Assembly: GCA_947462815.1 (NCBI GenBank)
Contig: CANHQR010000028.1
Location: 1 to 42,889 of the forward strand
Source of the DNA: Pseudobdellovibrionaceae bacterium
GTDB taxonomy: Bacteria; Bdellovibrionota; Bdellovibrionia; Bdellovibrionales; JAMPXM01
DNA: 42,889 nt
Reading direction: 5' to 3'
In this document: one piece after another, positions 123 through 23,637 of the stretch
Numbering within the stretch: position 1 is the stretch's first letter
Layout: every line of letters starts with the position of its first letter
Program-made: the position numbers and the translations under genes
The notes under the pieces: model-generated
Databases searched by the model: none
Told to the model about the DNA's origin: nothing
Seen by the model: the letters and a program-made list of their open reading frames with translations, nothing else

Positions 123-144
123 AGCACAATCAACTGGCCCAGTT
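123..144. repeat. end of a third palindromic element copy
   Basis: The reverse complement reads AACTGGGCCAGTTGATTGTGCT, matching the ends of the elements at 14384 and 38866. The palindrome is AACTGG-G-CCAGTT, with a matched G-to-C and C-to-G exchange relative to the other copies. The body would lie toward position 1; the opposite end is not visible in the window. The rest of 1-143 has no recognisable gene. Confidence 0.6.
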
Positions 145-1226
145 TACAAATTCTTCGCAAACAAGGCGTAGCGATGTTCCCAGAGATCCTCAGCCTTACC
201 GGCATAGGTCTCCGAGATGTTACCACGCCTTACGAGGGCATGAATCATCCGATCATGACCGGCCGCAAGAGCAGACTCACATGAGTAGCTCATCACGGCG
301 CTCGAAAGCCCTTGCCCACGGAACTTCGCCGAGACCGCTAAAGTCTTAATGACCACATAGTCTTGGTCGATGAAAGCAAATGAAAAAGCCGCCGGCTCCC
401 CAAAAGGCGATCGCAAAAGATACGCATGCTGTAAGCTCGTCGGCCCGCCCTTCAGTGCCGAGAGTCCTGTTACATAGAGCGACTCAAAGACCGCATAGGG
501 AATCGGCGTAAATAGAAAAGCCTCATCGAAGCTCTGCATCGACATATCGTAAAGCCCACGCATCAACTCCGCTCGAGAGCCCGGTTCAAGAATCAAATCT
601 GCAAAGGTATGAGCGCGAAAGCCCGCCGCCTCGGCTTTTTCCCGCGAAGGCTTCAGCTTGGCCGCGAAGCCCACTAGATTTCCGAGACCTTTGGAATGGT
701 ACTTCTCCAAGATCTTGTATCCATTCTCAGGCCATAAAAATTCGTCGCCAACGACCTGCTGAGGCTCCCAAGAGAATCTGGGCGTCGGCCCGATTTGTGA
801 TTTGTCCTCTTGCCAGAGTCGCGCACGATAAGGAAACCATGTCGTCATCACCATCGGCCCAACCACTCGACTCGCGCCGCGCTGTCGAGCCCAGTCTTCC
901 GCAGCCTGGGTGAGCTTTTGAAACGCAGCTCGGCGATTCTCACCTTCGCAGGTCGATGCGAAGAAGCCCAAAGCCACCGCTCGCCCTTGATCTAAACTTT
1001 GCGTCGCACCCATTCGGGAAAACCCATCAGGCGAATTCAGAGCGAAAAACATATTCGGAACATCAAGCGAACGACCTACGAACCGAGCTTCCATGGAATC
1101 GACTTGGGGCGGTGAGACCTCGGCCCCTAAGCCCAAGAATTGACTCAAGATCTGTCCCTGAAGCGGTGCAGATCCCAAGCTGATCACTTCAGATGTGACG
1201 TTCATTTGTGATGAAGACTCACTCAT
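144..1226 (-). CDS. GNAT-type N-acyltransferase (YghO-like)
   Basis: Probable acyl-CoA or acyl-carrier N-acyltransferase, cytosolic. The C-terminal ~100 residues contain the GNAT acyl-CoA loop (RGQGLSSA) after a beta strand. The central part, with a 'WARQRGASRVVGPM' stretch followed by 'FLWPENGYKILEKYHSKGL', resembles tandem-GNAT proteins of the YghO type, a group that includes bacterial ceramide-synthase-like enzymes; this is recognition by eye, not a search. The ATG at 1226 (MSESSSQM) is chosen; an in-frame TTG at 1250 is possible and has no better ribosome site. It is the last gene of a four-gene minus-strand run, 90 bp after the dikinase gene, so it may finish the same product. The TAA stop abuts the end of a repeat element. 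A general GNAT call is safe; the substrate is unknown. Confidence 0.7.
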   Translation of the reverse strand: MSESSSQMNVTSEVISLGSAPLQGQILSQFLGLGAEVSPPQVDSMEARFVGRSLDVPNMFFALNSPDGFSRMGATQSLDQGRAVALGFFASTCEGENRRAAFQKLTQAAEDWARQRGASRVVGPMVMTTWFPYRARLWQEDKSQIGPTPRFSWEPQQVVGDEFLWPENGYKILEKYHSKGLGNLVGFAAKLKPSREKAEAAGFRAHTFADLILEPGSRAELMRGLYDMSMQSFDEAFLFTPIPYAVFESLYVTGLSALKGGPTSLQHAYLLRSPFGEPAAFSFAFIDQDYVVIKTLAVSAKFRGQGLSSAVMSYSCESALAAGHDRMIHALVRRGNISETYAGKAEDLWEHRYALFAKNL

Positions 1227-1316
1227 GTCGCTGATCCCACTTCCGGCCAAAGGCCCATGATCTTACTGGCTGCAGTCTGAGGTTTGACGACTTGTCGACT
1301 CGCTTGATCACGAGTC

Positions 1317-4142
1317 TTAGGGTGCCTTCTCGAGAATACGCATTTCACCTCGCGCTCCATCGAGACGGACACGATCACCTGTCTTCAACTTCTTCATGAG
1401 ACCGCCCGAAATTCCCACGATGGTCGGCAGCCCCAGCTCACGAGCGACGACCGCCGAATGAGACAATAAACTTCCGCGTTCGATCAAAAGACCGCTACAA
1501 CTCGGATAGAGCGGTACCCAGCCCGGATCCGTGCGCTCAGTAACAAGTATTTCGCCATCGATACCCTCAGCATCTTTCATGTCGCGTACAACTCGGACTG
1601 CACCTTCGACAACACCTGGACAGCAGGGCGTCCCGATGAGCACATTAGGATCATCCGACTTCGGTCGATCTTTCGCCAATAGATCGAGCTCCGCAAGGAC
1701 CTGGGCAAACGGCAGACTCACACCCACCGCACCTTCCAGAAGGAAGCGATCGGGCGGAGGCATAGATCGATCGTAGGCCTGGAATTCAGCCTTTCGAAGT
1801 TTGGCGAGCTCGCCGAGAGCCAAAGTCACACTGCGCCCTTCATTGTAGGCGATTAACTCTTCAATCGTTAAATAGAATACATCTCGCTCCGCTTGCAAAA
1901 TCCCGAGCTGCTGCAAGCGATAGCCCATAGCCCTAATCAAATGCCGAGCAACGCCAAAGACTTTCGTGCGCGCAAAACGCAGATTCTCCCGATTGCGCAC
2001 GGCTCTTCGCGTCTGATGGAGAATCCAATTGTAGAACCACAGCTTCCATCCACCCAGGCGGCGGCGAAGTTCATCTTCGGCCTTGGCACGAATCTCTTTT
2101 TCACGTCTTTCCATGGCTTCAATATCATAGGCCTTGGTGCGGATATAACTTTGCACACTGCCGACAACGAAAGCTGGGTCATCGTGGAGATCGCTCTCTT
2201 CAAGCTTCAACTCATTGATGCAGCGAAATCCATATTTATCAAGAAAGCTCTCAAAAGCCGCTTTCACTTTGGGATCGCGACCGGCTTTGATCTCGGCCCA
2301 TACTGCATCGGGCTTGTCAGACACAAACCACTTTTTAAACGCTTCGTCGCGGGTCTTGTCGATATCCGCCGCAATCCTCATCAGCGTCTTTGTCGGCTCT
2401 GTGGATTCAAGATCACCCTGACCACACAGCAAGTCATTCTGCAGAGCCTGAACAGCTTGTGACTGAGTTGCGTCACCTCCGGCCACCCACTTCTCTGTGA
2501 GGCTCTTGAGCAAACCGAAGAAAATCATGCAGAGGTAGTCGTTGATAATCGGCACCTGCCAACGCGATAGAAACGCCGTCTCCAGGTGACTATACTCGCG
2601 AAGCAACTGATCGAGAGGTAGCGAACGATAATTCTTGTGCCGTGCCGTTTCGTAAGTCGGCACAAAGCTTCGGTTAAACTCTGCAATGAGTGAATCAATC
2701 TGCAAGAAGCGACCGACCGTTTTAGCCAACAAAGTGAGTTTCTGAACGAGAGAGTATCTCGGAGGATGCTGAACGAACTCAAAAAGTTTAGCAACCTCGG
2801 GCTTGAGTCCTTGTTTAGTGCCCATCATGGTTTCCATGAAGGACTTGTTCGAGGCGGATCCCGGCAAAAGCAGCACCAGCTTATACCAATTGACGAGGTT
2901 ATAGTAGATCCGCCCGCGGATGAGACCCAGCATGTTGCGAAACACATCTTCTCGCTCGATGATCCAAGCCGGCGGCACACCCATAACATCGCAGAATTGA
3001 ATGTAGACCTGCCGATAAGCGCGCGAGGCAAAGCTAAAGGTCAACGGTGTCGTCACGCCCGAGTAGCTCTCGATGATGTTAGAGTTATCCCATAGCGTAG
3101 GCTCTTGGCCGCGCACATCTGTTTGAAAGAAGACATCCGGAGGCAGACTCGTGATCGGCCGAGTTTGCACACAGTAGAGCTGTTGAGCATCAAAGGCCCA
3201 TTCGCAGTCTTGGGGTGAGCCGAGCTTTTTTTCAAGATCGACCACCAATTGCGCCACGGCTTGAACCTCAGGCGCAGAAAGGCTCGGCGCTTTGGCGCTG
3301 TCTGCGGATACCGCGACCTTAACAAGGCCACCGGCCTCGTTTCGACGAAAAGCTTCGTTTTTCTCAACCAGTTCCGACTTGTATTGGAGTGGAGCCGAGC
3401 TTGACCCCAGAAGGGAGGCCCTGGACACATCAAAGTTGTCGCTCTCTAAGTAACCGCTGACCAGCCCTTCACCCAAACCATAGACAGACGAAACCAAAAC
3501 AGAGTCCCGATCCAGAGCGCGAACGGGATTGCGCGAAAAGGCAACGCCGCTCACACGGGCATCGACCATTTTTTGGATCACGACACCAACAGCGAGATGT
3601 TCCAACTTAATTCCGCGCTCTACGCGATAGGCCAAGGCCCGTGCCGAAAATCCAGAAGCCCAGCAGCGTTTTAGGGATTCGAGAATTTGCTCCTCACCTT
3701 TTTGGAAAAGATAACTTGAGAATTGGCCCGCGAAGGAGTTTTCAGCCGAATCTTCATCCAATCCCGATGAGCGGACCGCAACCGTTTGCTGCTGCCAACC
3801 CAAACGAGCCAACTCGGCCTGAATGGCACTACGGACCTCCACAGGAACTTGGCTTTTGAGAAACTGAGCTTCAATCTCTGAGGCAATGGCGTCAAAGTTC
3901 ACCGTGCGCGCATCGGTGTGGAGATCAAAGGGTAACTTCAACATTTGATCGAGGCGATTCTGAGTGATGAATAACCTGAAGCTCGAGGCAGTCACGGAAA
4001 ACCATTCGGGTACAGGTACACCCAGAAGGCTCATACTCGCCATATTGCGAGCCTTGCCTCCGGCTTCGCGTGTCAGCAAATCACGCCGATCGGTTTCAGA
4101 TAAAGATCGAAGCTCTTCAGGCCGGATGATCAACAAACTCAT
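1317..4142 (-). CDS. PEP-synthase/rifampin-phosphotransferase-like dikinase
   Basis: 941 residues in the order ATP-grasp domain (about 1-340, PPDK N-terminal type, with 'GGKARNMASM' near residue 30 and 'CEWAFD' near 320), a long helical middle region (about 345-830) and a C-terminal swivelling phospho-histidine domain (about 845-935, 'LLSHSAVVAREL', His about 895). The C-terminal PEP/pyruvate-binding barrel of true PEP synthase is absent. This order is that of rifampin phosphotransferase, in which the beta-phosphate of ATP passes through the His to a hydroxyl on a bound small molecule, giving AMP and Pi. The middle region probably sets the substrate, and it is not one I recognise. It lies 27 bp after the UbiA-like gene, so the acceptor may be a prenylated or lipid product. 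ATG with a GGTGG-type ribosome site just upstream. Confidence 0.8.
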   Translation of the reverse strand: MSLLIIRPEELRSLSETDRRDLLTREAGGKARNMASMSLLGVPVPEWFSVTASSFRLFITQNRLDQMLKLPFDLHTDARTVNFDAIASEIEAQFLKSQVPVEVRSAIQAELARLGWQQQTVAVRSSGLDEDSAENSFAGQFSSYLFQKGEEQILESLKRCWASGFSARALAYRVERGIKLEHLAVGVVIQKMVDARVSGVAFSRNPVRALDRDSVLVSSVYGLGEGLVSGYLESDNFDVSRASLLGSSSAPLQYKSELVEKNEAFRRNEAGGLVKVAVSADSAKAPSLSAPEVQAVAQLVVDLEKKLGSPQDCEWAFDAQQLYCVQTRPITSLPPDVFFQTDVRGQEPTLWDNSNIIESYSGVTTPLTFSFASRAYRQVYIQFCDVMGVPPAWIIEREDVFRNMLGLIRGRIYYNLVNWYKLVLLLPGSASNKSFMETMMGTKQGLKPEVAKLFEFVQHPPRYSLVQKLTLLAKTVGRFLQIDSLIAEFNRSFVPTYETARHKNYRSLPLDQLLREYSHLETAFLSRWQVPIINDYLCMIFFGLLKSLTEKWVAGGDATQSQAVQALQNDLLCGQGDLESTEPTKTLMRIAADIDKTRDEAFKKWFVSDKPDAVWAEIKAGRDPKVKAAFESFLDKYGFRCINELKLEESDLHDDPAFVVGSVQSYIRTKAYDIEAMERREKEIRAKAEDELRRRLGGWKLWFYNWILHQTRRAVRNRENLRFARTKVFGVARHLIRAMGYRLQQLGILQAERDVFYLTIEELIAYNEGRSVTLALGELAKLRKAEFQAYDRSMPPPDRFLLEGAVGVSLPFAQVLAELDLLAKDRPKSDDPNVLIGTPCCPGVVEGAVRVVRDMKDAEGIDGEILVTERTDPGWVPLYPSCSGLLIERGSLLSHSAVVARELGLPTIVGISGGLMKKLKTGDRVRLDGARGEMRILEKAP

Positions 4143-4169
4143 TTTCCACCCACTTCAAGACGAAACGTT

Positions 4170-5150
4170 TTACTTTGATGCCGCTGTACCAAAGATCAGA
4201 GCATTGAGGATCGGAGCCCAAATGTGGAAAAACAGCGAGAGCGTCGCCATACCCTCAATCACTTTGTGCGCACGCGGTTTAAACAACAGTACGATGTACG
4301 AAAGAAAGGTCAGCGCGGAAAAGGGCGCCATCCAGACCGTGAGGCCTGTCTGCGAAGCTCCACCTAGGGCAATCAAAGTGAGAAACATGACAATGATGGC
4401 ACTACCTTTAATGCCGTAGATTTGTCGATAAGTTGCGAGGATAGGATGGGCATCAGCATCTTGCTTGCGAGAAACTTCGTAAGTGAAGAAGCTTCCCAAC
4501 ACTGCAACAGACCATGCCAAGATCTGCGCAGTCTGGGCTCCTACGAACTCACGACTCACAAACGGAATCCACGGATGAGGGTCCTCGATGATCATCACGC
4601 TCGTTCGACCCGCGTCTTGAGCGGCAGCCATCAAGATACAAAATGGAATGAGGATAACTTGATGCGTGATCGCGTAAGCGAGAGGACTTCTGCCGAGGGC
4701 CTCGCCGACATAGAACTCTCGATACATCAGCCAAAGCCAGAGTGTCGTCACAATCGCCAAACCAGCGGCCCATCCCGAGTGCAGCGCGAACCCGAATGAG
4801 CCGAGGAGACCTGCGAGCATCAAATATTGGATGACGCGTCCCACGTGGTTCTGACTGAGCCATCCCTGCGGCAGAGGTCGCGACGGATTGGCCACGACGT
4901 CTTTGTCGTAGTCTTTAAGCTCATCCATCAAGCGAAGCGTGCCAAACAACCACAGCGCATACAAAAAACTAGCCAAGGTTTTTAAATTGAAGAGGCCACC
5001 GGGATGATCGCCGCCGCCCGCCTGAGCCGCGCCGGAGAGAGCTAGACCTCCGGAAAGTAGCAAGTAGACAGGGATGGGAAAGCGCATTTTCACATAAGCC
5101 CACCACGCGGCGGCTGAGTTGGTAGGAAAGGTCGGGGTTGTTGGTTTCAT
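4170..5150 (-). CDS. UbiA-family membrane prenyltransferase
   Basis: 326 residues with eight or nine hydrophobic helices. The first Asp-rich motif is 'DELKDYDKD' followed by 'NPSRPLPQG' (about residues 77-95), and a second acidic motif ('YEVSRKQDADAHP') lies near residue 230, the arrangement of UbiA-type intramembrane prenyltransferases that join a polyprenyl diphosphate to an aromatic or other acceptor. The first motif is a variant of the usual NDxxDxxxD. ATG with a good AAGGAG site 7 bases upstream. It sits between the AMP ligase (87 bp upstream) and the dikinase (27 bp downstream), so a role in a shared lipid or meroterpenoid pathway is more likely than ubiquinone or haem synthesis, whose usual neighbours are absent. 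Acceptor and prenyl length cannot be read from sequence. Confidence 0.8.
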   Translation of the reverse strand: MKPTTPTFPTNSAAAWWAYVKMRFPIPVYLLLSGGLALSGAAQAGGGDHPGGLFNLKTLASFLYALWLFGTLRLMDELKDYDKDVVANPSRPLPQGWLSQNHVGRVIQYLMLAGLLGSFGFALHSGWAAGLAIVTTLWLWLMYREFYVGEALGRSPLAYAITHQVILIPFCILMAAAQDAGRTSVMIIEDPHPWIPFVSREFVGAQTAQILAWSVAVLGSFFTYEVSRKQDADAHPILATYRQIYGIKGSAIIVMFLTLIALGGASQTGLTVWMAPFSALTFLSYIVLLFKPRAHKVIEGMATLSLFFHIWAPILNALIFGTAASK

Positions 5151-5237
5151 CTTTCACTCCTTTAGGAGAAAAGTTTGACGTCAAGTGAGAGTCCAACTCA
5201 TTAAGAGCATCAATTTCTCAGCTACAATGCGGTCGAC

Positions 5238-6740
5238 TCACGCATCCTTCTTCCGCCACTGACGACTCGCCTTCGCGCTCTGCGCTCGGTCGATTCGCGC
5301 CCGATGTCGGCGATCTCTTTGAATTCGACAGCTTCTCAATTCCATGATGTCTTGAGCTTCGGCAATCTCACTCCAGGCTCGCTGTAAAGACTCTGTATCG
5401 CCGTCGACATAGACGACCCCGCCACAGGCATTTCGCATCAAAAACACACGGCTATGCCCAAGCTTTGCGGCCAGACGTTGCTCCCACTGAAAATCCGCTT
5501 CGGACTGAGCCGATCGACCCGCGTACCACCAAATCCCTTGGCGTTCGGCGATTCGATCCCCCATTTTATGCCAAACCCGATCCTGTTCATCGCGGCGTTT
5601 ATTTTGCCGGTTTTCCTCTACGACACCTTCGCCTTGGCCGACGTAGAATTGGCAAACATGCGGACCTGTGACCCAGGCCGTATCGGGCTCAAGCTGAGAC
5701 TGGATCATTTCAATCGGGCGCCCCAAGGCTAGCGTCTGAAAACAGCCCGCGTCTCGCGAGACCTGCACGGCCTCGCGAGCATCCATAAGGGCCACCGGCT
5801 CAGCTTCACTCGATCCGTAAATATGCACGAAGTCAGATTCGGGAAACCGTCGAAAGGCCGCTTCAAAGATCTCGCAGTCCGTAAGCGCCCCTCCCACGTG
5901 GACTTCTTGAAGTGAGGTATAACCCGTATGTTTCAACAGCAGCTGTAAAAATGCAGGGCCCAATGTGGCTGTCTGCGGCGCCAAAGCTGTCGGAAGTTCG
6001 CCAGCCCAACGCAGATGCCGAGCTTTCCAAGCCGGCGGAATCACCACTGAAGCACGCTGACTGGCGAGATTCGCGAAAACGAAGTTTGTGAAAATGGTGA
6101 GCTCTGGACCCGAATATCGATCGTGATGCAGAGCCTGTGAGAGTACGCGATGTTGATCGAGCAGATACTGGTGGCGTCTCGCGACACCCTTCGGCGCACC
6201 TGTGGTGCCACTGGTGAAAGCCAAGAGGCCACCGTGCTGAGGCTCAACGCCGACGACTTCGAGACTTGTACCGGTGGCGGCCAGGGCGCGGAGTTGCGAT
6301 AGAGATTTCCAGATCGGGATGCCGCGAATTGCGGGCACTCGTAATCCCCAAAAGCGACCCAACCAGGAAGCCAGGAGCAATCGGGGTTTCAAGCCTCTCA
6401 CCACTCCTTCAATCCGATCCAAAGGCATCCATGGTTCGACAACCGCGACCTCAATTCCAAGCGCCAAGGCCGCCAGCACAAAGGCATAAAGATCGGCTTG
6501 TAGACCCTCTGCCAACAAAACTTTGTCACCATATTGAAGCCCTAATTTCTTTAAAGCACTTTGATAGATCTCGGCCCGTCGACCTAGCTCCGCAAAACTC
6601 ACCACCGACTGGCCTGGAAAAATCAGTGCAGGCCGGGAGCCGACGAGATCCAAGGCACGAAGGACCGGCGCGACGCCATTCAGTCGCCCTTCTCGAACCA
6701 CCTTTTGTTGTTTGAGCTCCGTCGTCATAGGTTCAAGCAT
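5238..6740 (-). CDS. AMP-forming acid ligase (ANL superfamily)
   Basis: 500 residues. The nucleotide-binding loop 'FTSGTTGAPKG' lies near residue 175, 'YGSSEAEP' replaces the usual YGxTE around 310, and 'GDRIAERQGIWWYAGRS' (about 395) is the GD...GR motif. It should activate a carboxylic acid as an acyl-adenylate and pass it to CoA, a carrier protein or an amine. The C-terminal end ('DRRHRARIDR') resembles that of OleC-like and fatty-acid ligases but has Arg/Ala where a catalytic Lys is usual, so the second half-reaction may differ. It is the first gene of the minus-strand run; four 13-bp repeats lie just upstream. There is no clear ribosome site before the ATG at 6740; a second ATG follows four codons later. 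Confidence 0.8.
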   Translation of the reverse strand: MLEPMTTELKQQKVVREGRLNGVAPVLRALDLVGSRPALIFPGQSVVSFAELGRRAEIYQSALKKLGLQYGDKVLLAEGLQADLYAFVLAALALGIEVAVVEPWMPLDRIEGVVRGLKPRLLLASWLGRFWGLRVPAIRGIPIWKSLSQLRALAATGTSLEVVGVEPQHGGLLAFTSGTTGAPKGVARRHQYLLDQHRVLSQALHHDRYSGPELTIFTNFVFANLASQRASVVIPPAWKARHLRWAGELPTALAPQTATLGPAFLQLLLKHTGYTSLQEVHVGGALTDCEIFEAAFRRFPESDFVHIYGSSEAEPVALMDAREAVQVSRDAGCFQTLALGRPIEMIQSQLEPDTAWVTGPHVCQFYVGQGEGVVEENRQNKRRDEQDRVWHKMGDRIAERQGIWWYAGRSAQSEADFQWEQRLAAKLGHSRVFLMRNACGGVVYVDGDTESLQRAWSEIAEAQDIMELRSCRIQRDRRHRARIDRAQSAKASRQWRKKDA

Positions 6741-6898: not shown

Positions 6899-7288
6899 TC
6901 ATATCTCGGATCCCGCTACGGGTTCTGCGCCTCGATGAGCGATCCACAACCAAGATAACAGAGTCCACATTAAATGATTCACGAGGAAGACACCACGAGG
7001 CGCATTTGCGCGCGGGTTTGGAAAAATTCTCCGCGCCTCATCCGCGGCTAGCAAAAGATGGTAGATTGCATTTGCGTGCGCGAGTCTGAGTGGCGAACCC
7101 GGCCAAAAGATCAAGAGACTTATGCCGTTGATCACGAGAAGTCCTGACAAGAGCTGAAAGCGCGATTCGATTTGCCAAGAACCCAAGCGCTCGCGCAAAT
7201 CAACGAGCTCATGACGCCAAAGCCAATCGGCCCAAAACGCGTGAAGCACAAGGAGTGAAACTGTGCAGGCGATGATGAGTTGGCTCAA
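6899..7288 (-). CDS. small three-helix membrane protein of unknown function
   Basis: About 129 residues. Hydrophobic segments lie at about 2-20 ('LIIACTVSLLVLHAFW'), 45-63 and 102-120. No known family recognised. The open frame extends further upstream to 7507, but that part is hydrophilic and lies antisense to the secreted-protein gene. The TTG at 7288 is preferred because it places the first hydrophobic helix at the N-terminus and has a GAGGTGAAG ribosome site directly upstream; a GTG at 7297 is the alternative. It diverges from the next gene. Confidence 0.5.
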   Translation of the reverse strand: MSQLIIACTVSLLVLHAFWADWLWRHELVDLRERLGSWQIESRFQLLSGLLVINGISLLIFWPGSPLRLAHANAIYHLLLAADEARRIFPNPRANAPRGVFLVNHLMWTLLSWLWIAHRGAEPVAGSEI

Positions 7289-7343
7289 AACCTTCACCTC
7301 GATGCCTTGGCCATGGACCACTTCATTGTCCGGGTTCACGCGG

Positions 7344-8246
7344 ATGTTGTCACGATCGAGTGCAGTCGGACTGGGCGTACTCGCGATCCTTTCGACCTCC
7401 ACCGCCGTGGCGCAGGACCCCAGCTCTTTTCCTTCCGAATGGGAGTCTTTGCAGAGACGAAATACTCGAGGTCCAGAGTGCTTTCGAACACATTTGCGCG
7501 AGGCCATTCAACTGAACCGAACACGCGGTGTACTTTATGCCCAACTGAGCCAAGGCGAAAGTCAGGCCCTTACCGATAAACTGATCTCTCTCGAGCGCCT
7601 CGCGATCTTCGGCAGTTACTTACCTTTCCTTGGCTACAATTTCGATGAGCGCGCCCTGGAATGGCAAAACTCTTCAGCCCGCATCCAGATCGTTTGTGAT
7701 GAATTCATCTCGATGCATGAAACTCCAGCCTATCGTTCACAGTTTGCGGATGGCCCAGTCCGTAAGTCCCTCTCGATCGGTCGCGAGCTTGAGGCCGAAA
7801 TTCTTCCGCCCTTGCTTTCCCCAATTTCGATTCAGCGTCGATTGCGAAGGGCCTTGAATTCTTCGCCAGAGAAATTCATCGCCCATCAACATTTGGCCAA
7901 TGAGGCACATCAGCTCCTCCAAGAGCTCGAGGGTCACTGGCCAACCCGCGATGGTCAATACCTCGGCGGACCTCGACCTGACATTTCGGAACTTCGAAAA
8001 TCAAACTGCATGCTCCGTCACATGCTTGAAAGCATCCGACGGATTGCGAGGCTTTCGCCGCGCCATCATATGCGCGCCTTAGATTTTGGACTCCGCTCAC
8101 CTCTTACACTTTCGCAAGATTTGCTCACAGCCCACATCAAGTGGCTCGGTGAGGCCATTGAAATTGATCGAGAGGCCGCAGCCCTTCATCAACGGGGAAT
8201 TCCCATCGTCTGCAATGATGTGCCGACCATTCCCGACGCTCGATAG
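7344..8246 (+). CDS. secreted protein of unknown function
   Basis: About 300 residues with a clear signal peptide (basic start MLSRSS, hydrophobic core, cleavage after AVA before Q). The mature part is mostly alpha-helical with several Cys and many Arg and no domain I recognise. The start at 7344 is chosen because the signal peptide begins there. An upstream in-frame GTG at 7263 has an AAGGAG site and would add 27 residues, but would overlap the start of the divergent membrane-protein gene. A 30-bp hairpin follows the stop. Exported to the periplasm or outside; function unknown. Confidence 0.6.
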   Translation: MLSRSSAVGLGVLAILSTSTAVAQDPSSFPSEWESLQRRNTRGPECFRTHLREAIQLNRTRGVLYAQLSQGESQALTDKLISLERLAIFGSYLPFLGYNFDERALEWQNSSARIQIVCDEFISMHETPAYRSQFADGPVRKSLSIGRELEAEILPPLLSPISIQRRLRRALNSSPEKFIAHQHLANEAHQLLQELEGHWPTRDGQYLGGPRPDISELRKSNCMLRHMLESIRRIARLSPRHHMRALDFGLRSPLTLSQDLLTAHIKWLGEAIEIDREAAALHQRGIPIVCNDVPTIPDAR

Positions 8247-14527: not shown

Positions 14528-15919
14528 TCAAAGCTGAGTCTTAAACTCAAACAAACAGGGCTTCGCCAAGACACTTCGACAATCATCCACAGCCTGACGA
14601 AGCTGAGTCGACTTCTCCACGAGATCCCCTCGACGAATTCGACTCAACCATTGGCGCGGCGAACTTTCTCCCGTTCGGCGCCATTCGCCCATTTGCAGTC
14701 GCGCATAAGCCACGGCGTACAACCAGCTTTCATCTTCAGACGATAAATTCGGTAAAAACAAACGGTCAAAGCTCTCCGACATGGCAGCCAGCTGAGCAAC
14801 TTGACCGTCAGCCAAAGCCAAAGTCGCCTGCTGGCGCCATCGATCCTTGCTTGCGGGAATCTGAATCGCCAAGTCTTGGGCCTGGACCGACCAGCTCGCA
14901 AGACGAGACAGCTCGCTGGCGGGATGCGCGTAGACTGGGGAGATCCGACTCAACATTCGATAAAACTCAGCGGCGGTAAATGCCTCGCCCTTTTGAAAGG
15001 CCAGCTTCGCTCGCAGAGCGAGTACGTCCTCCTGTGGGAACGGCTGGGCTTCGACCTCACCCAGCAGGAGTCCGGCTTCGAGGATTTGCTGGGCCTCGGG
15101 GACAGCGCTGACCTTACGGAAGAGCTCAGCGAATTCGGTCGCTGCCGTCGAACGAATGGAGCCCGGAGTGGCCGGAAGCCTCTGTAGAGCGGAAATGGCG
15201 AGCTGCATCGCTTGTTGGCGAAGCTCGAGATCTAAGGCGAAGCCGATGAGTTCTCGTAGACTCGCGGGTGACATCCACGCCAAGTCACTGCTCGATGATG
15301 CTTGCAAGCCGACACGACCCCGATTGGCCGAGCTCGCAAGCTCTCGCGTAAGTTGATCCACATCCTTCAAGAGGTCCTTATGTCGACGCGAGTCCCGAGC
15401 CGCACGTAAACGCAAGCGTGCACCTTCGGGGTTCGACCAGAGCTTTTGAAGGGGGTTGATCACTTTTGCGAGCGTGAAATGTGCCTGAAGAGCCGTCCCT
15501 CGATCCAGCTGCACACGAGCGAGCTCGAGCCGCACATCATCTTGATGGGTCAGCTGGAGAGCCTGATTCAATTCAGTTTCGGCTTGAACCAGTTCACCTG
15601 CCTCTTCAGCCAATAGTCCGCGAATTCGGTGCGCTAAAGCTGAACCTCGAAGCGGGGCTCGGCCCGCTCGCTCCTCCGTGAGGAGCACCTCTTTGGACCA
15701 CTTCACTTGTCCATCTTGGGCCAATCGCAGCGCCAATTCGAGTCCTTGAAAATCGTCATAGGATTCCGGCAGTTGCTGCCGAATGGCCGACTGTGCTTCG
15801 CCCACCCCAGCCCCGAACACCAAAACTGAGCAAAGAATTCCCATCAAGACTCGAGGCGATCGAGCGCCTCGGTTCCTTGAACGTCTCTTCAGTACGCAGA
15901 GGTCGACTCGCAAGTTCAT
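14528..15919 (-). CDS. TPR-like protein of the TonB cluster
   Basis: 463 residues with a basic leader and hydrophobic segment (about 24-42, 'MGILCSVLVFGAGVGEAQS'), so exported or anchored in the periplasm. The rest is helical with TPR-like repeats (for example around 85-130, 'RGLLAEEAGELVQAETELNQALQL'). TonB2-type clusters commonly end in a TPR protein that helps the TonB complex act on its receptor; this is the same position, 21 bp after tonB. An AGGGTGAC ribosome site lies before the ATG. The exact role is inferred from position. Confidence 0.65.
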   Translation of the reverse strand: MNLRVDLCVLKRRSRNRGARSPRVLMGILCSVLVFGAGVGEAQSAIRQQLPESYDDFQGLELALRLAQDGQVKWSKEVLLTEERAGRAPLRGSALAHRIRGLLAEEAGELVQAETELNQALQLTHQDDVRLELARVQLDRGTALQAHFTLAKVINPLQKLWSNPEGARLRLRAARDSRRHKDLLKDVDQLTRELASSANRGRVGLQASSSSDLAWMSPASLRELIGFALDLELRQQAMQLAISALQRLPATPGSIRSTAATEFAELFRKVSAVPEAQQILEAGLLLGEVEAQPFPQEDVLALRAKLAFQKGEAFTAAEFYRMLSRISPVYAHPASELSRLASWSVQAQDLAIQIPASKDRWRQQATLALADGQVAQLAAMSESFDRLFLPNLSSEDESWLYAVAYARLQMGEWRRTGESSPRQWLSRIRRGDLVEKSTQLRQAVDDCRSVLAKPCLFEFKTQL

Positions 15920-15940
15920 GTCACCCTACTCCCTTCTGCA

Positions 15941-16579
15941 TCACTGCAACTCAAACCGCATCTTCTGCTTCAACCAACTCGCGACGGCCTGACCCGAGGC
16001 CATCGCCGGCTCAAACCGCCAAGTTCGAACTGCCTCTCGGGCGGCCGCATCGAAGACACCGGGCGGCTCGGCCTGCAACACGCGAATCTCTTCCGGTACA
16101 CCGCCCGCGCTCACGAGGATCTCTAAGACAACATAGCCCGAGACGTTTTTCTCTCGAGCCGAGCTCGGGTATTGTGGTTCAGTTCGCTGTGATACACGGG
16201 CGGCACGCTCGACCGCCGACTTTGCCATAGCCTTCGATGCTCCAACCTGGCCTTGGCCACCATCCTCAGCGAATCCGCCGCCAACATCGGCCCCTCCCTC
16301 ACCAAAGCCCTTGAGACTTGAACTGACTTGCGGCTTGAGGTCAGGAAGGTTCTGCGGAAGCTGGACCTGCCTGGACTTCGGGGGCTCCGGCGGTGCCCGC
16401 AGTACTTCTGATACGGGCACCAGTTTTTTGTGTGAGGGCGGCGCCGAGGGTTTTGATCTCAAAAAACTTGGCGAAACTGGCCGAAGCCCTGAGCTCAACG
16501 CCAAAAAGCCCGCCACGCCGATGATCCCCATCAGTGCCGCGACGAACTTTGTACTCTTGCTGTATGGCCAACGTTTCAT
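15941..16579 (-). CDS. tonB: TonB energy-transducing protein
   Basis: 212 residues: short cytoplasmic basic start, one N-terminal membrane helix (about 13-32), a Pro-rich periplasmic spacer ('PPEPPKSRQVQLPQNLP'), a Gly-rich stretch, and a C-terminal TonB domain ('PQYPSSAREKNVSGYVVLEILV...' to 'WLKQKMRFELQ'). It carries proton-motive force from ExbB/ExbD to the receptor in the outer membrane. The ATG at 16579 has an AAGGAAAG site and starts 7 bp after the stop of the preceding gene; a longer frame to 16606 overlaps that gene and is less likely. Confidence 0.9.
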   Translation of the reverse strand: MKRWPYSKSTKFVAALMGIIGVAGFLALSSGLRPVSPSFLRSKPSAPPSHKKLVPVSEVLRAPPEPPKSRQVQLPQNLPDLKPQVSSSLKGFGEGGADVGGGFAEDGGQGQVGASKAMAKSAVERAARVSQRTEPQYPSSAREKNVSGYVVLEILVSAGGVPEEIRVLQAEPPGVFDAAAREAVRTWRFEPAMASGQAVASWLKQKMRFELQ

Positions 16580-16586
16580 TCTTTCC

Positions 16587-17486
16587 TTAAGAGCGAGCGA
16601 TCGCAATAAAGAGTCCCGTGACCGCTAAGCCCAAAAGCGCCAACCAAAACAAGGGAATCCAACCTGCCGCGTGGTCCGCAAAGCTCGCCGCCATCGTAAG
16701 GTCCGAGCGTTTGGTGACACTGTCGTACACAAACGCGGAGAGCGAATCCAAAACAGCGCCGGACTTCAAGGCTTTGAGCATCGCCGGTTCAGCGGCTGCC
16801 ATTTCTAACCAACCGCCTTTTCCATCCGGGGCAACGACGAAAGTTTGGCCCTCGGCCTCGGCAAAGGCCGCTGTTTGTCCCAGATGAATGACTGAACCCT
16901 GACGTCGGCGGCCTTCGCGATCGAGAAAACTCCCCGCCTCAACGCGAACTTCTCGCGCTTGACGCAAGGTCACTTCCGCACGCTCGACTTCAGACGCAAA
17001 GCCATTCCAAAGATCCGCACTCATCGACTGCAAAGAGGCCGCGTCGCCATGATATTGATCCAGAAACTTCTTAAGTTTCTGACGAGCGGCTTCCATGTGT
17101 GTGCCTTGCAGGTTCTGCTTTTGACGACGGTCGTACTCATCGAGTTTCGCCTTGAGCTCATCGCCTTGAATAGCAAGCTTGGCGCGCTCCGCATCCTGCG
17201 CCTTGCGCTGGCTTTCCATCTCGCGCTTCTGCTTAAATCTTCGTTCCTCGAGCTGTTGAATTTGCCGAGCCATCGCATCGCGAAGACTCACCAACTGAGC
17301 TTCTTCACGAGCTGCAGCTTGAAGCCAGGAATTCTCACCGCTCGTCAAGTTTCGGCTCTCCGTCTGCGAGGCCGCCGTCATCGATCCCAGAGTGAAGATC
17401 GCCACGAAACTACCGCCCACCAAAAACCGAGCCAAGCTGGCTCCCACAGCAACCAAGAGCATTCTGAAATCTCGAAGCGTCATCAT
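16587..17486 (-). CDS. TtpC-like periplasmic coiled-coil protein without channel domain
   Basis: About 299 residues. N-terminal signal/anchor helix (about 12-38), a long coiled coil (about 55-145, rich in Glu, Lys, Gln and Arg), a beta-rich region ('RQGSVIHLGQTAAFAEAEGQTFVVAPDGKGGW') and one C-terminal membrane helix ('WIPLFWLALLGLAVTGLFIAIA'). This resembles the N-terminal half of TtpC, the MotA/TolQ/ExbB-type partner in TonB2 systems, but stops after the first membrane helix, so the proton-channel part is missing. The ATG overlaps the previous stop as ATGA and has an AGGAG site 7 bases upstream. Confidence 0.65.
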   Translation of the reverse strand: MMTLRDFRMLLVAVGASLARFLVGGSFVAIFTLGSMTAASQTESRNLTSGENSWLQAAAREEAQLVSLRDAMARQIQQLEERRFKQKREMESQRKAQDAERAKLAIQGDELKAKLDEYDRRQKQNLQGTHMEAARQKLKKFLDQYHGDAASLQSMSADLWNGFASEVERAEVTLRQAREVRVEAGSFLDREGRRRQGSVIHLGQTAAFAEAEGQTFVVAPDGKGGWLEMAAAEPAMLKALKSGAVLDSLSAFVYDSVTKRSDLTMAASFADHAAGWIPLFWLALLGLAVTGLFIAIARS

Positions 17487-18310
17487 TTCGATTCTCCTGT
17501 CGAAAAGCTCACAGGTGTCGCCAACTGAAGATAGGCTGAAGTTTTCTTTTCGCGAGCTTCTTGAAGTGCACTCAATAGGACCGTCTTCGCCGCAGCAGCC
17601 TCGACCCACTCCGGCTCTTGCTCGAGGCCGCGCCAACGACCAATGCGTGCATCGGGGGTAAAAATCCAAGCCTGGATGCCTCCGACTCGCAAGCCCTCGA
17701 CGACCTGCGAAGCTCGAAGTTCGCTAGATTTCTCAGCGCTCGCAGAGCTTTCCCAGCTCAGTTCCTCGCGTACATAATGAATTCCACGAGTCAGCTTCAA
17801 TTCTTGAATCAAAAGCTCGGCGAGCTCCCCCGAAACTTCGTCGGTCGTCGCTTGACCGCTTTGCAAGGAGGATTTGAGCTTCGCCCACTTCGCCACGAGT
17901 TCCTGACGCCCCACCGACAAAGTCGTCGACGTGAGCTTTTCGAGGCGTTGCACCAGTTGCGTCAGCCGAGGCTGATCGGTTTGGGTGACTGTCGTCCCAC
18001 GATCAAGGCGCAACTTTGCGGCTCGAACGCGCTCCTCAAGAATGCGAATCTGCGTCCGCTGAGTTTTAAGTTCCGCATCACCCGCGAGAAGCTGACCGAG
18101 TTCCGCCTGAGCCTCGGCCTCGACCGATTTTTTAAGCTGATCCCACTTCGAATTTTGGGCTTCCACCTCTGCGCGCAGCTCGGCGATCCGTCGACTTGCG
18201 GTCACGAGGTCGTTGGACGCCACCGCAATGGGCGCGAATCCAAGAGTGGCCAAGCCAAGAACGAGAATAAGGTGGACACCGAATTTTTGCGTCGTTGGTT
18301 TGAGCAACAT
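17483..18310 (-). CDS. DUF3450-like periplasmic coiled-coil protein
   Basis: 275 residues with a signal peptide (about 1-31, 'LVLGLATLGFAPIAVAS'), a long coiled coil (about 35-130), and a C-terminal globular part with 'GGIQAWIFTPDARIGRW', the kind of aromatic/Arg motif seen in DUF3450 proteins. These accompany ExbB2, ExbD2 and TonB2. It starts within the stop of exbD (TGATG, one-base overlap) and its own stop overlaps the next start, so it is translationally coupled on both sides. Probably a periplasmic accessory of the TonB complex. Confidence 0.7.
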   Translation of the reverse strand: MLLKPTTQKFGVHLILVLGLATLGFAPIAVASNDLVTASRRIAELRAEVEAQNSKWDQLKKSVEAEAQAELGQLLAGDAELKTQRTQIRILEERVRAAKLRLDRGTTVTQTDQPRLTQLVQRLEKLTSTTLSVGRQELVAKWAKLKSSLQSGQATTDEVSGELAELLIQELKLTRGIHYVREELSWESSASAEKSSELRASQVVEGLRVGGIQAWIFTPDARIGRWRGLEQEPEWVEAAAAKTVLLSALQEAREKKTSAYLQLATPVSFSTGESK

Positions 18311-18717
18311 CAGGGGCTCCCTTCTACAGAAACTGCCAATTTGGAAAGACCGGTCGACTGCAAAAGATCCATGATCCGCACCACCACTCCGTGAGCCGCT
18401 GCGGCGTCGGCCGAAATTACGGCCGTAGAGTCTGGATCCGAAGCGGCTCGTTCAAGAGCTTGTGCGCGCAAGGCCTCGTCGTTGACTTCCAAACCATTGA
18501 GATACATCTGCCCGCTTGCCGAAACCTGTACCGTAAACGGCAGTGCCGTCGAGGATGAACCCGAAGAGGCCTTCGGCAGCTGCACATCGATCTCTTTGGA
18601 AGAGAAGCTCGATGCGGTGACCATGAAAATGATGAGAACGACCAGGATGATATCCACCAGAGGAACGATATTGATCTCGGAGATCACGTCTTGAGATGCC
18701 GAGGGCGATGCGGCCAT
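18310..18717 (-). CDS. exbD: ExbD/TolR-type proton-channel subunit
   Basis: 135 residues: a short cytoplasmic start, one membrane helix containing the conserved Asp ('PLVDIILVVLIIFMVTAS', about 19-36), and a periplasmic ExbD/TolR domain. The membrane Asp is the proton-handling residue of the family. It works with ExbB to power TonB. It starts 9 bp after the exbB stop and overlaps the DUF3450-like gene. Confidence 0.92.
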   Translation of the reverse strand: MAASPSASQDVISEINIVPLVDIILVVLIIFMVTASSFSSKEIDVQLPKASSGSSSTALPFTVQVSASGQMYLNGLEVNDEALRAQALERAASDPDSTAVISADAAAAHGVVVRIMDLLQSTGLSKLAVSVEGSP

Positions 18718-18726
18718 GTGCGAACC

Positions 18727-19347
18727 TCACTTTCTTTCCGAAACAATGACCGCAAGCTCACGCAGAGCCTCCAAGGTCGTGGTCACTTTCTTGACGAGCT
18801 TCTGCAGATAGTTGAAAGCCAAGACCGCAGGGATGGCGACCATAAGACCAGCCGCCGTCGCGATCAAAGCTCCGGAGATTCCCGCCATAACGGCTCCCTG
18901 ACTGCCTTCAGCAGCTGAGCCCAGATCGCGAAAGGCTTTCATGATTCCAAGGACGGTTCCGAAGAGTCCGATGTAGGGTGCATTCGCCCCAACTGTCGCT
19001 AGGAAACCCAAGGATCTCTCCAGGCGAGGCCGCTCCAACAAAATGAAAGTGTCAAAGGCTTCGCGTAGACCTTTGCCTTGTGACGCTTGAATCGCTTCAA
19101 CTCCTAAACGCACGGCCCGATCTTCGAGTGGCCCGCCCACGCTTTCGAGTTCGGCGAATTTCTCGATTTGCGCAGTGCCCAGCATCTCCTGAATGCGAGT
19201 CTCAACTTTTGCGGCTCGACGAGCAGCTCGCGATAGCACCCAGTAGCGCTCAGCGATCAGACCGAGACTCACAACACTGAGAATGAGGAGCAAATACAAA
19301 ACTCCGCGATCGGCAAGGTGGGCGATCTCAAAAAAACTCTCTTCCAT
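18727..19347 (-). CDS. exbB: ExbB/TolQ/MotA-type proton-channel subunit
   Basis: 206 residues with three membrane segments (about 15-33, 115-140 and 160-180). The conserved 'GLFGTVLGIMKAF' and 'GISGALIATAAGLMVAIPAVLAFN' motifs place it in the MotA/TolQ/ExbB family. It forms the channel with ExbD. The ATG at 19347 has a GAGGAG site 10 bases upstream; a TTG three codons earlier is too close to that site. About 86 bp separate it from the ankyrin gene, with short CGGCTTCTT-like repeats in between. Confidence 0.92.
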   Translation of the reverse strand: MEESFFEIAHLADRGVLYLLLILSVVSLGLIAERYWVLSRAARRAAKVETRIQEMLGTAQIEKFAELESVGGPLEDRAVRLGVEAIQASQGKGLREAFDTFILLERPRLERSLGFLATVGANAPYIGLFGTVLGIMKAFRDLGSAAEGSQGAVMAGISGALIATAAGLMVAIPAVLAFNYLQKLVKKVTTTLEALRELAVIVSERK

Positions 19348-19433
19348 AATCTTCAAACTCCTCTCGGCTTCTTCACGGCTTCTTCTCAGCTTCTCTACGA
19401 GTCCCGAAGGACACAGACCATTTACCCTCGGAC

Positions 19434-20144
19434 CTAGTCGATGGCACCTCGGGCCTGTAGATCCTTCGCGATCGCGGTCTGACCCGAGGCACGAGCTGCG
19501 CCCAGAGCCGTCAGACCATCCAGAGATCGCAGGTTCAAGTTACAACCCGGATAACGAATGAGCATTCCGACAACACCTCGAGCACCGGCGCGCGAAGCGG
19601 AAATCAAGAGCGTGTCGCCGCTGGCGGGATGAATGAGATTCACATCCAAACCCTGATCGAGTTCCGCTTTGAGCTTTCGCCACTCTCCCGTCTTCGCAAG
19701 CTCAAACAACTCCGCGAGCTTTTCTGCAGAAATCTCAGTCGGCAAGAGTCTCAAGATCTCGGGATAGTTTTGCGCAAAATCGCGAGCGCTCAGGCCTTGA
19801 GGATCTCTGAGACTTGGATTCGCGCCTCGTGCGAGAAGCTCTCGCACCAAACCCAAGCGTCCCCAACGGGACGCTTCCATGAGAAGTGTGCGCCCCTCCG
19901 CAAGTCGATGATCAACGGACAAGCCTTCCGAGATTCGCTGGAGAACCGCCGTCTCGTCTCCGCGCTGGATCTCAAGCTGAAGGCTTTCGGTGTCGCTGAG
20001 GCGCTGCGGAATATCAGCCGAGACCTCCGATTCGCCAAAGAGATAACGAGACTCATGGTGCCCACAACCGGATCCGAGGATCAGAATCAGCACGCACAGC
20101 ATGCGTCGAACTACAAAAGGCTCAGGTCGCACAAGTCTTAACAT
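19434..20144 (-). CDS. ankyrin-repeat lipoprotein
   Basis: 236 residues. An N-terminal hydrophobic segment ends in a possible lipobox ('ILGSGC', Cys27), followed by ankyrin repeats ('GRTLLMEASRWGRLGLVRELLARGANPSLRDPQG', 'GDTLLISASRAGARGVVGMLI', 'DGLTALGAARASGQTAIAKDLQARGA'). Probably a membrane-tethered periplasmic binding protein. The ATG overlaps the receptor stop by one base (TGATG), so it is coupled to the receptor and likely serves the same uptake system. The lipobox has Gly at -3, so lipidation is less certain. Confidence 0.75.
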   Translation of the reverse strand: MLRLVRPEPFVVRRMLCVLILILGSGCGHHESRYLFGESEVSADIPQRLSDTESLQLEIQRGDETAVLQRISEGLSVDHRLAEGRTLLMEASRWGRLGLVRELLARGANPSLRDPQGLSARDFAQNYPEILRLLPTEISAEKLAELFELAKTGEWRKLKAELDQGLDVNLIHPASGDTLLISASRAGARGVVGMLIRYPGCNLNLRSLDGLTALGAARASGQTAIAKDLQARGAID

Positions 20145-23100
20145 CAGAACACCGCCGAGAGTTGCAAACCAAAACTACGCCCACGTCGATAGGCCAGCGC
20201 CACTTGGTCACCTTGCGTGAGGCGAGTCTCAGTATCGAGTAGGTTCCGAGCTCTCAGCTGAATCTGCATCACGGGATCCCAGCGACGAGCCTGAGAAATC
20301 TCGGGTTGGTGGAACTTCCAGGACATGACGTAATCGAGCTGCGGCTGCGCTTGTTCGTAAATATCCGGGAGACCGCCTGTCGAGGCTTCGCGAATGCGTG
20401 GTCCGACGACATTAAAGAGCAAGCCACTCGCCAAACCATAGGTCTTATGATCGTAGTAGAGCTGGAGATTCACCACCCAGGGTGACTGTCCTTGCAAGGG
20501 ACGTTGATTGGACGTTTGCACCGTTGCGGAACTCGGCTCAATTTCGATTTGCGAGCGAATGAGAGCCAGATTTCCCGCGACGGTGAAGCGTCTGAGCGTC
20601 TCTGACCATCGCCGAAGTCGCCACCGACTTTCGATTTCGACTCCATCGTTTTCAGCGCGCCGAGCATTGTCATAGGTTCGAACTGTCTCGTCACCTTGGG
20701 CTCGCATCACTTGCTCGATGGGACGATCGAAGTCCTTACGGAAGATCGCAATGGAGAAGGACTCTTCCGTGGAGGGATAGAACTCATAGCGCAAATCGTA
20801 ATGGCGGATCACGGAGTTTCTCAGCCGGGGATTGCCTTTGACCTCTTGTCCCGTTTCTTCATCAATGTAAGGAGCCATGGAGAGTTCCTTAAAGTCGGGC
20901 CGCGAAATCGTTTCCGCATAGGCCGTACGAATTTGATGACCCTCGACGAATTCCCAGATTCCCGTCATCGACGGCAAGACATCACGAGTTTCAAGTCCCG
21001 CTCGTACAGGCTTGTTTTCGGGATCAAAGAGATTGTAGGTCAGCACATCCTGGCGCGAGACCTCCTGACGAGCTCCCGCGGAAAAACGCCAACGTTTTTT
21101 CAGCTCAAGATCGACCGTGGTCGAGAGCGAGGAGATCTCCTGACCGGCACGATAGTTGTCGGTCTCTCGAGTTGTCTCGAGAACCTGAAAACCCGTCGGA
21201 GAGATGTTTTCGGCAGAAAGTACCTCTTCAAGAGGTGAGGCCAGATTTAAACTTGAGCCCGAAGGTCGCACATCGCGGAAGTGAAAGCGGCGAAGCTGCG
21301 ATTCGCGATCACGGCGCACCTCCGTCGCACCGAAGCTTGAAGCCCAGGAACCCCAAGCTGTCTTCTGGCTGAGCTTGAGATCGCCACCCCACTCCCGAGT
21401 CTCATCTTTGAGCTCGCTGAAACTTCGCTGGTTGCCATCCGCGCGAGTTGAGAACACAAACTGATCATTTTCCCATTGGTAGCGAGAATCTCTCTGATCG
21501 GGCGCCTCTCGGCCTGCTTGGGCGCGCGAACCACGATAGCGCACTCGCGTTTGGAACCCCGAAGCCGACTGCCACTCGTGTTCGCCTCGAGCCTGCTGAA
21601 TCCACAGTTCACGCTCCACCCAACTGAGCGATGTCGAACGGAATCGCCCGTTGGCATTGGTTTCATCACCCAAAGAGGCTTGATCGGATGAGTGCTTGAG
21701 CCAAATATTGGTGATCGAGAGGCGATGCTGTGCGGAGGCTCCCGAGATCCGAGCCTGATCCCATTGAATACCCCAGTCACCCGTTGCGGCCCAACGCACT
21801 TCGTTTTCGGACTCCACTCTTCGGCTCAAAACATCGCGAACGAGTTTACCTTCAGCTCCAAGAGAATACTTGTTGCTTTCCTTCTCGACGGCTTCCAAAT
21901 CTCGACCATAAAGCACCGAAAGCTGACCACCCATTTTGGCCGTTGGGCTGAACTTCCAGACCTGACCGATCGCGGCGTTCATGGAGGGCTGAGGATTTTC
22001 GGTCACCTCGCGGGTGCTCCAGACTCGCGAGAAACTTCGGCCAAATTCCTGGAGTTGTTCAGGCGTGAAACCCTGAGGAAAGAGCGGGTTGATTTCCTTA
22101 AGGCGACGACCATCAGCGGTGGCCTCACGGACCTGCGCAGGTAAGGCTCGAGTGCCATCGTCAAATCCGAGATGATCCGAGCCCCCGCCTTGATAACCGA
22201 GAACTGAGGTTGCTGAACCGGATGTATTGGCACCAACTTGGAGCCTCGCAAAAAATTGGCTCGGAATCGGCTTGGTTCCGATGCGAATCGCACCGCCACC
22301 AAACTCACCCGGTAAATCGCTTGTGTAGGCTTTTTCGATGATCAAAGTTTCCAAGACACTGGTCGGAAATAAGTCCAGCGGCACAACTCGGCGAGAGGGT
22401 TCGGGGCTCGAAAGAGCCGCATCATTGAGTAAGATCGAGGAGTAACGCTCACCCAGTCCTCGAACGTAAACATACTTTCCGCCCACCAAAGTGAGTCCCG
22501 TCACGCGCCGCAAATTTCCGGCAGCGTCTCCGTCACCACTTCGACTCATCTGCTCAGAACCCAAGACTTCAGCAACACCGCGCCCTTCGCGTCGAATCTC
22601 GATCAGCGCACTGACGCCTCCCTGCACGCGAGGCGCTAAAACTCGAAACTCCTCAAGCGCGGTTGAGGCGGTCTTCAAACGGATCACCCCATTTGCTTGA
22701 GGGTCGGCCTGCAAAGTGACCTGCATGACTTCATATTGAGGATGCGAAACGAAAATTCTTTGACCCGGGCGAGCCGACACCTGCACCTCGCCCAATTCCG
22801 ACGACGTACTGAACTCATCTTGGCCCTCGACCTCGAGTTTCACTCCCGAGATCGGTTGCGACTGATCGTTGAGAAATCGAAATTGATAGGCCTGGAAAGG
22901 AATCTCAGGATTCGACCTATCCGCTGCACGAGGGATAGGCGGAGCATGTTCGACTTCGACTTGGGATTCCGCAAGAGGCTGACCCTCGTTCTTTGCGGGT
23001 CGAGTCCACCGAATGATGACACGCGCGATTCGATCCTGATCGACCTCGACCGGTACCTCCCGATCAGGCTCGGCAGCGATTCCCTGAGGAAACTTTTTGG

Positions 23101-23629: not shown

Positions 23630-23637
23630 GGTCATTC

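Follow-up and report, generated by a model that had tools for sequence, protein, structure and literature searches.

A ligase, UbiA, dikinase and N-acyltransferase gene cluster of a Pseudobdellovibrionaceae bacterium as the possible core of a pathway for an amine-bearing, lipid-like compound

Introduction

The envelopes of predatory Bdellovibrio-like bacteria are unusual. BtaA transfers a 3-amino-3-carboxypropyl group from S-adenosylmethionine to a lipid hydroxyl. Here we describe four adjacent genes, encoding an acyl-adenylate ligase of the ANL family (LIG), a UbiA-superfamily enzyme (UbiA), a putative small-molecule dikinase (DIK) and a GNAT-type N-acyltransferase (GNAT), in a 42,889-nucleotide stretch of DNA (the window) from a Pseudobdellovibrionaceae bacterium (GenBank assembly GCA_947462815.1, contig CANHQR010000028.1, here C28). 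Small-molecule dikinases of the rifampin phosphotransferase (RPH) type have been discussed (PMC12167813), and the catalytic residues of RPH-Lm are R117, R666, E667 and H825 (PMC4844700); the aca gene of the Escherichia coli BL21 ceramide locus is that of YghO (ECD_02850), a candidate ceramide N-acyltransferase (PMC9386255); and a UbiA-like gene has been paired with Bdellovibrionota in other gene neighbourhoods (PMC12419801). No description of the whole gene set was found in the literature searched, with subscription papers outside the search, in agreement with the initial annotation, which knew of no pathway with this combination. We propose, with moderate confidence, that these genes form the core of a conserved cross-phylum pathway for making an amine-bearing, lipid-like compound and exporting it.

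Results

The four genes occur together across genomes

The four open reading frames on the minus strand were confirmed in the order LIG, UbiA, DIK, GNAT with gaps of 87, 27 and 66 bp, and Pfam and NCBIfam upheld the families that the initial annotation had assigned to them:

5238..6740, minus strand: LIG, acyl-adenylate (ANL) ligase, OleC/PRK09274-like, 500 aa; PF00501 94.7 bits, position kept in related loci
4170..5150, minus strand: UbiA-superfamily intramembrane enzyme, 326 aa; PF01040 31.4 bits, just below the Pfam cut-off of 34.2; profile match to 6m31 in the PDB
1317..4142, minus strand: DIK, RPH-type small-molecule dikinase, 941 aa; PPDK_N 255 bits, PEP-utilizers 72.7 bits
144..1250, minus strand: GNAT, 368 aa with TTG as listed start; N-acyltransferase of the tandem-GNAT type, distantly YghO-like; PF00583 30.8 bits

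The core genes sit at the start of the contig, and because contig C28 of the 3.43 Mb genome ends at window base 1, anything 3′ of GNAT is missing from the window.

A profile of the DIK middle domain (A4) was searched against one genome per species (84,980 species) and detected 166 relatives. The best 80 of these were taken with up to 10 kb of flank and their genes labelled by per-gene profiles; neighbours were counted in the 46 loci whose flanks reached 4.5 kb or more before the dikinase and 2 kb or more after it. A UbiA of the same subfamily lay directly 5′ of DIK on the same strand in 42 of the 46, usually with LIG before it, and LIG and UbiA were fused in several loci. GNAT was present in 28 loci, directly 3′ of DIK in 26, and a formyltransferase gene (FMT) in 14, with both in none (0/46); the 14 formyltransferase loci, in which FMT takes the place of GNAT, also carried a hydrolase-ligase (variant B, as distinct from the hydrolase-free variant A). 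The GNAT count is slightly low owing to gene-calling misses, as a YghO query still matched the spot in loci L069 and L070. The order LIG-UbiA-DIK-GNAT was kept in closely related genomes. This gene arrangement is not due to chance, and the search found the four genes neither scattered elsewhere nor each with other conserved neighbours, which supports one functional unit.

Further genes recurred around this core. A DUF3419 (BtaA-like) gene was nearby in 33 of the 46 loci, a PigE-like reductase (AAR) in 21 and an exporter permease in 8. A homologue of 3-hydroxy-3-methylglutaryl-CoA (HMG-CoA) reductase was found in 6, never together with the PigE-like reductase, occupying the position of AAR and a fatty-acyl-reductase-like protein (FAR); the dikinase tree shows five changes in this alternative. 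In locus L121 twelve co-directional genes follow one another as DAGK-FAR-AAR-BtaA-FMT-ABH (hydrolase)-LIG-UbiA-DIK-ABC ATPase-ABC permease-LolA-like, and in L134 UbiA-DIK is followed by a whole second block of DAGK-FAR-AAR-ABC-ABC-LolA-OMP-BtaA, OMP being an outer-membrane protein. Separately, an HMG-CoA reductase fused to an APH-type kinase was observed beside the core genes of L122 (1035-3557, plus strand). A 'phytol kinase/VTE5' label for a recurrent membrane protein of Gemmatimonadota-type loci was dropped, having neither Pfam nor NCBIfam support.

Most loci belong to Bdellovibrionota, and firm others to Chloroflexota (Caldilineaceae, L116 on a 5.95 Mb chromosome) and Gemmatimonadota (L108-L110 and L117), so the presence of the pathway in at least two phyla besides Bdellovibrionota is firm. 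Since metagenome bins can be mixed, the single bins labelled Planctomycetota, Verrucomicrobia, Fibrobacter, Myxococcales, Chlamydiae and Gammaproteobacteria serve only as leads. Locus L114, labelled Euryarchaeota, is nearly identical to the Gemmatimonadota locus L117 and probably comes from a mixed bin, as probably do L079 (Chlamydiae) and L091 (Betaproteobacteria), the latter grouping with Silvanigrella L090.

The genes are gained and lost together

To the four genes a further component was added by co-occurrence with DIK:

7263..8246, plus strand: protein of family H13, with a signal-like N terminus in the window copy

When 99 related genomes were searched with DIK (E < 1e-100), the DUF3419 profile (E < 1e-30), the UbiA subfamily profile (E 1e-20) and H13, DIK was detected in 23. 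UbiA was present in 22 of these 23 versus 1 of the 76 others, DUF3419 in 21 versus 2, and H13 in all 23 versus 2 (Fisher p 9e-20, 4e-17 and 2e-20, respectively, with relatedness ignored). Contrasts within a genus are the better argument: in genus g20, 12 genomes held DIK, UbiA, DUF3419 and H13 and 5 held none of them, and genera g5 and g37 displayed the same all-or-none pattern except for one gene in one genome that is 88 percent complete. In predatory Bdellovibrio relatives the pathway is thus kept or lost as a block. The exceptions were genome G001, which is 64 percent complete, and G086, whose UbiA, DUF3419 and H13 are accompanied by no more than a remote dikinase; as G086 holds these three elsewhere, there may be a third version of the system. 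The remote dikinases of G086 (L054) and G001 (L053) themselves lie in another, mutually similar neighbourhood (c28, c29, c30).

H13 had neither a Pfam family nor a PDB match and carries a conserved C-terminal motif, GIPI..QDVP. In g20 it lies ∼60 kb or more from the dikinase, so its co-occurrence is more than co-location. In the same genus, a Ser/Thr kinase with a PEGA domain and a long-chain acyl-CoA synthetase were observed directly before the core (L042, L044, L045, L046, L048 and L050).

A second block carries lipid-type enzymes and an exporter

The linked genes encode a PigE/acyl-ACP-reductase-like protein (AAR), a fatty-acyl-reductase-like protein, a DAGK-type lipid kinase, a DUF3419 protein, a LolCE-like permease and a LolA-like protein. 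In the source genome they form a block on contig C33, consisting of DAGK, FAR, AAR, an ABC permease and ATPase on the other strand, the LolA-like gene, OMP and DUF3419. In G004 and G010, both relatives, the core is bordered by the second block, so C28 and C33 probably adjoin each other in the source genome. The extent of 144-6740 given by the initial annotation therefore holds four real genes and is too small, with the H13 gene at 7263-8246 just upstream and a second block on C33. Its suggestion of a lipid or secondary metabolite fared likewise: the reductases, lipid kinase, lipoprotein-type exporter, LolA-like carrier and DUF3419 protein fit a lipid-like product, made by more than four genes.

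The DUF3419 domain scored 166 to 207 bits (cut-off 28.2), and its profile gave only weak methyltransferase matches in the PDB. Many loci also hold a cytochrome P450 nearest to albaflavenone and pentalenene oxygenases.

Active-site signatures of the core enzymes

In DIK, two features were compared with RPH:

1458..1460, minus strand: codon of the catalytic His895 of DIK (RGSLLSHSAVVARE), invariant in 37 sequences, aligned with RPH His825
1743..3110, minus strand: substrate-binding middle domain of DIK, residues 345-800 (profile A4), R718-E719 aligned with RPH R666-E667

Pfam placed the ATP-grasp domain at residues 26-333 and the phospho-His domain at 862-932, giving the RPH-type order of ATP-grasp, substrate-binding and C-terminal phospho-His domains; the PEP/pyruvate-binding C-terminal domain PF02896 was absent in this search, the phospho-His domain standing at the C terminus instead. 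The predicted structure (predicted local distance difference test, pLDDT, 88.7) had rifampin phosphotransferase chains as all of its best six structural matches (5hv1, E 3.9e-43, template modelling score 0.64), and R124, R718, E719 and H895 of DIK, all invariant in the 37 sequences, aligned with the four catalytic residues of RPH-Lm. The middle domain had no Pfam match and displays invariant motifs of its own. DIK reached the cut-off of the NCBIfam equivalog NF004881, phosphoenolpyruvate synthase (887.9 bits, cut-off 883), and not that of the rifampin phosphotransferase model NF041857 (344 bits, cut-off 999). Being RPH-like, DIK has a substrate that the database name 'phosphoenolpyruvate synthase' does not reveal, and this name is misleading; its fold, its catalytic residues and the absent PEP-binding domain make the phosphorylation of a small or lipid-like molecule, with ATP converted to AMP, its most likely reaction, as for the dikinases discussed in PMC12167813.

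The UbiA orthologue profile had digeranylgeranylglyceryl phosphate (DGGGP) synthase as its best PDB match (6m31, E 7e-8), and two sites were compared with the Asp-rich motifs of the superfamily:

4899..4925, minus strand: first Asp-rich motif of UbiA, D76-E-x-K-D-Y-x-x-D84; D76, E77, K79, D80 and D84 invariant in 37 sequences
4464..4478, minus strand: usual site of the second Asp-rich motif, here E225-xx-R228-K229; E225, R228 and K229 invariant

The first agrees with the pattern (N/D)DxxDxxxD, with Glu as the second letter; at the second, the 37 sequences had no Asp pair of the DxxxD type and carried E225xxRK...Y241 instead, and the prenylation that had been proposed is thereby in doubt.

LIG scored 122 bits against PRK09274, below the cut-off of 478. 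Its ATP-binding P-loop TSGTTGxPKG and acidic A5/A7 motifs are intact, with G178, T179, K184, G185, E312 and D395 invariant (alignment A8), and the position of the A10 lysine differs:

5295..5315, minus strand: C-terminal DRRHRAR motif of LIG, in which Arg occupies the site of the A10 Lys; R482 is invariant across alignment A8

Among the 40 variant A ligases showing the motif, this position is Arg in 39 and Lys in 1, and it is Lys in 17/17 of variant B. Because Arg replaces this Lys, the acyl activation that had been suggested becomes uncertain, although the ANL family and the ATP motifs stand.

The predicted structure of GNAT (pLDDT 86) matches tandem GNATs. Its profile matched E. coli YghO weakly, at 24.7 bits and over the N-terminal GNAT domain only, and a YghO query detected the gene in ∼14 loci (best E 5e-9), so the earlier description as YghO-like holds weakly. 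The formyltransferase-type motif NxHxxLLP/NxHxxILP of FMT is kept in the 16/16 copies read. In one clade, N-formylation stands in for the N-acylation that had been proposed.

Other features of the window

A further gene precedes LIG:

6899..7507, minus strand: small membrane protein directly 5′ of LIG; 57.5 bits to a profile of same-position genes in L035/L037

Its start is uncertain, the homologous part begins at about residue 76, and it is kept only in close relatives. An Rfam search of the window gave no match, and promoter and terminator scans came out close to shuffled expectation and were set aside. Farther along, an apparent TonB/ExbB-type energy cluster lies at 14528-25044 (minus strand) with a TonB-dependent receptor at 20144-23527, as read from the open reading frame list only.

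Discussion

Joint occurrence, joint gain and loss, gene order and active-site signatures were observed directly, and from them we infer the chemistry of a pathway to an amino-lipid that is N-acylated or N-formylated and may include an isoprenoid part. Reduction of an acyl thioester would yield an alcohol and would fall to the PigE-like reductase together with the fatty-acyl-reductase-like protein or, in other phyla, to the HMG-CoA reductase homologue standing in for this pair (fused to an APH-type kinase in L122), and the DAGK-type lipid kinase would phosphorylate the alcohol. The next five steps are listed without a fixed order. The DUF3419/BtaA-like protein may add a 3-amino-3-carboxypropyl group from S-adenosylmethionine, bringing in a carboxylate and the amine that GNAT would cap with an acyl group or, in the other clade, the formyltransferase with a formyl group. 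LIG would bind ATP and activate or pass on an acyl or carboxyl group; His895 of DIK would carry the β-phosphate of ATP to a hydroxyl of the compound, yielding AMP and Pi as in rifampin phosphotransferase; and the UbiA-like enzyme would couple two parts of the compound within the membrane, one of them the phosphorylated lipid or prenyl moiety. The constant trio of LIG, UbiA and DIK would thereby account for activation, joining and phosphorylation. Finally, the LolCE-like ABC transporter, the LolA-like carrier and the outer-membrane protein would move the product outward.

Several points weigh against this proposal. The BtaA function is carried over, by analogy, from the family name. Two of the constant enzymes depart from their families: lacking the A10 Lys, LIG may not adenylate, and lacking the second Asp-rich motif, UbiA might work as something other than a prenyltransferase. 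Some loci lack the reductase/kinase block or the exporter beside the core, and the attempt to join C28 and C33 by end overlap or a shared gene found no link. The Fisher p-values are blind to kinship, and the dikinase tree shows the switch between GNAT and FMT as one event only, so their mutual exclusion has been toned down as independent evidence.

Of the other explanations considered, the synthesis of an isoprenoid ether lipid, in which UbiA would act like the archaeal DGGGP synthase and attach a prenyl chain to a head of the glycerol or homoserine type while the dikinase provides the prenyl phosphate, appears unlikely. That synthase is the nearest solved relative of the UbiA profile, HMG-CoA reductase homologues occur in 11 loci, L122 holds a CDP-alcohol transferase/CarS-like protein, and the P450 found in many loci resembles albaflavenone and pentalenene oxygenases; however, UbiA keeps the first Asp-rich motif only, no prenyl diphosphate synthase was among the labelled recurrent neighbour families (no search was aimed at it), and HMG-CoA reductase stands in for the AAR/FAR pair, never beside it, so that it may serve thioester reduction. 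A prodigiosin-like pathway to a small coloured or bioactive alkaloid, with DIK as a PigC/RedH-type condensing enzyme and a PigE-type reductase, is improbable: DIK scored 349 bits against RedH and 327 against PigC, and the reductase 180 against PigE, far from the cut-offs of 1350, 1300 and 850, respectively; the reductase match ends at about PigE position 348, with the aminotransferase part absent; and RPH is the closer structural match to DIK, though the structure library may hold no PigC.

In favour of an Ole-type route to a β-lactone or olefin, with OleB as hydrolase, OleC as ligase and OleD as reductase, variant B carries a hydrolase-ligase fusion resembling OleB-OleC (216 and 209 bits against OleC models), and weak OleD matches were seen for the FAR-like protein. 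Against it, a FabH query found no match, hence no OleA-like thiolase, in any locus (a very distant OleA could escape it), variant A lacks both the hydrolase and the A10 Lys, and the Ole cut-offs were not reached. We regard this route as very improbable and, with no OleA and no hydrolase in variant A, rejected it. Slightly less credence still is given to sphingolipid (dihydroceramide) synthesis with GNAT as the ceramide N-acyltransferase: GNAT is distant kin of YghO, but no serine palmitoyltransferase (SPT) or acyl carrier protein (ACP) matched in any locus, and the sole such enzyme found in the source genome is apparently PilZ-fused, on another contig and 37 percent identical. This route was likewise rejected, for want of SPT and ACP in the loci. 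That DIK merely inactivates a drug as a rifampin phosphotransferase, its neighbours being incidental, would agree with its RPH fold and catalytic residues and is hardly credible given its constant biosynthetic neighbours, its 344 bits against the RPH cut-off of 999 and the motifs of its own middle domain. The palmitoyltransferase-type enzyme of the source genome lies on contig C38 (L145, 1435-3330, minus strand); it is a pyridoxal phosphate-dependent enzyme of the serine-palmitoyltransferase/KBL type with a PilZ-like N-terminal extension, read by eye, and possibly an acyltransferase linked to cyclic di-GMP.

Each enzyme of the proposed amino-lipid pathway belongs to a known superfamily, and the chance of a new product class is real. 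In its fullest and somewhat doubtful form, the proposal is that of a new exported outer-membrane lipid or lipid-like signal, built from an isoprenoid or fatty alcohol with an acyl- or formyl-capped aminocarboxypropyl head and a phosphate from an RPH-type dikinase, with a non-adenylating ANL enzyme and a UbiA that is not a normal prenyltransferase, spread over several phyla and kept or lost block-wise in predators. If true, RPH-type dikinases, a large and mostly unexplored group, would gain a biosynthetic role beyond antibiotic inactivation and aromatic breakdown. A DUF3419/BtaA protein is seen here in a setting without an obvious betaine lipid, and H13, a previously unnamed protein family, is now tied to a system. 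As the pathway is all-or-none within one genus, knock-out and lipidomics could test what it contributes to strain differences.

Compared with the described systems, the locus shares parts with each. Rifampin phosphotransferase has, like DIK, an ATP-grasp domain, a substrate domain, a C-terminal His swivel and the same four catalytic residues (PMC4844700, PMC12167813), whereas DIK has its own middle-domain motifs and its gene stands beside UbiA and the ligase. The prodigiosin/undecylprodigiosin pathway has distant homologues of PigC/RedH and PigE in the loci, and the remaining genes differ. With the Ole pathway (OleA-D) variant B shares a hydrolase-ligase fusion, but OleA is absent and variant A lacks the hydrolase. 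Bacterial ceramide synthesis (spt, acpR, aasR, epi and aca/yghO) likewise has an AMP-forming ligase and an epimerase-type reductase, and its YghO is a distant relative of GNAT, but the loci here are without SPT and ACP. Betaine-lipid synthesis (BtaA/BtaB) shares the DUF3419 (BtaA-family) protein, which belongs to the present system and co-occurs with it, but has no counterpart of the dikinase, UbiA or ligase, and here an N-acyl- or N-formyltransferase lies in the locus.

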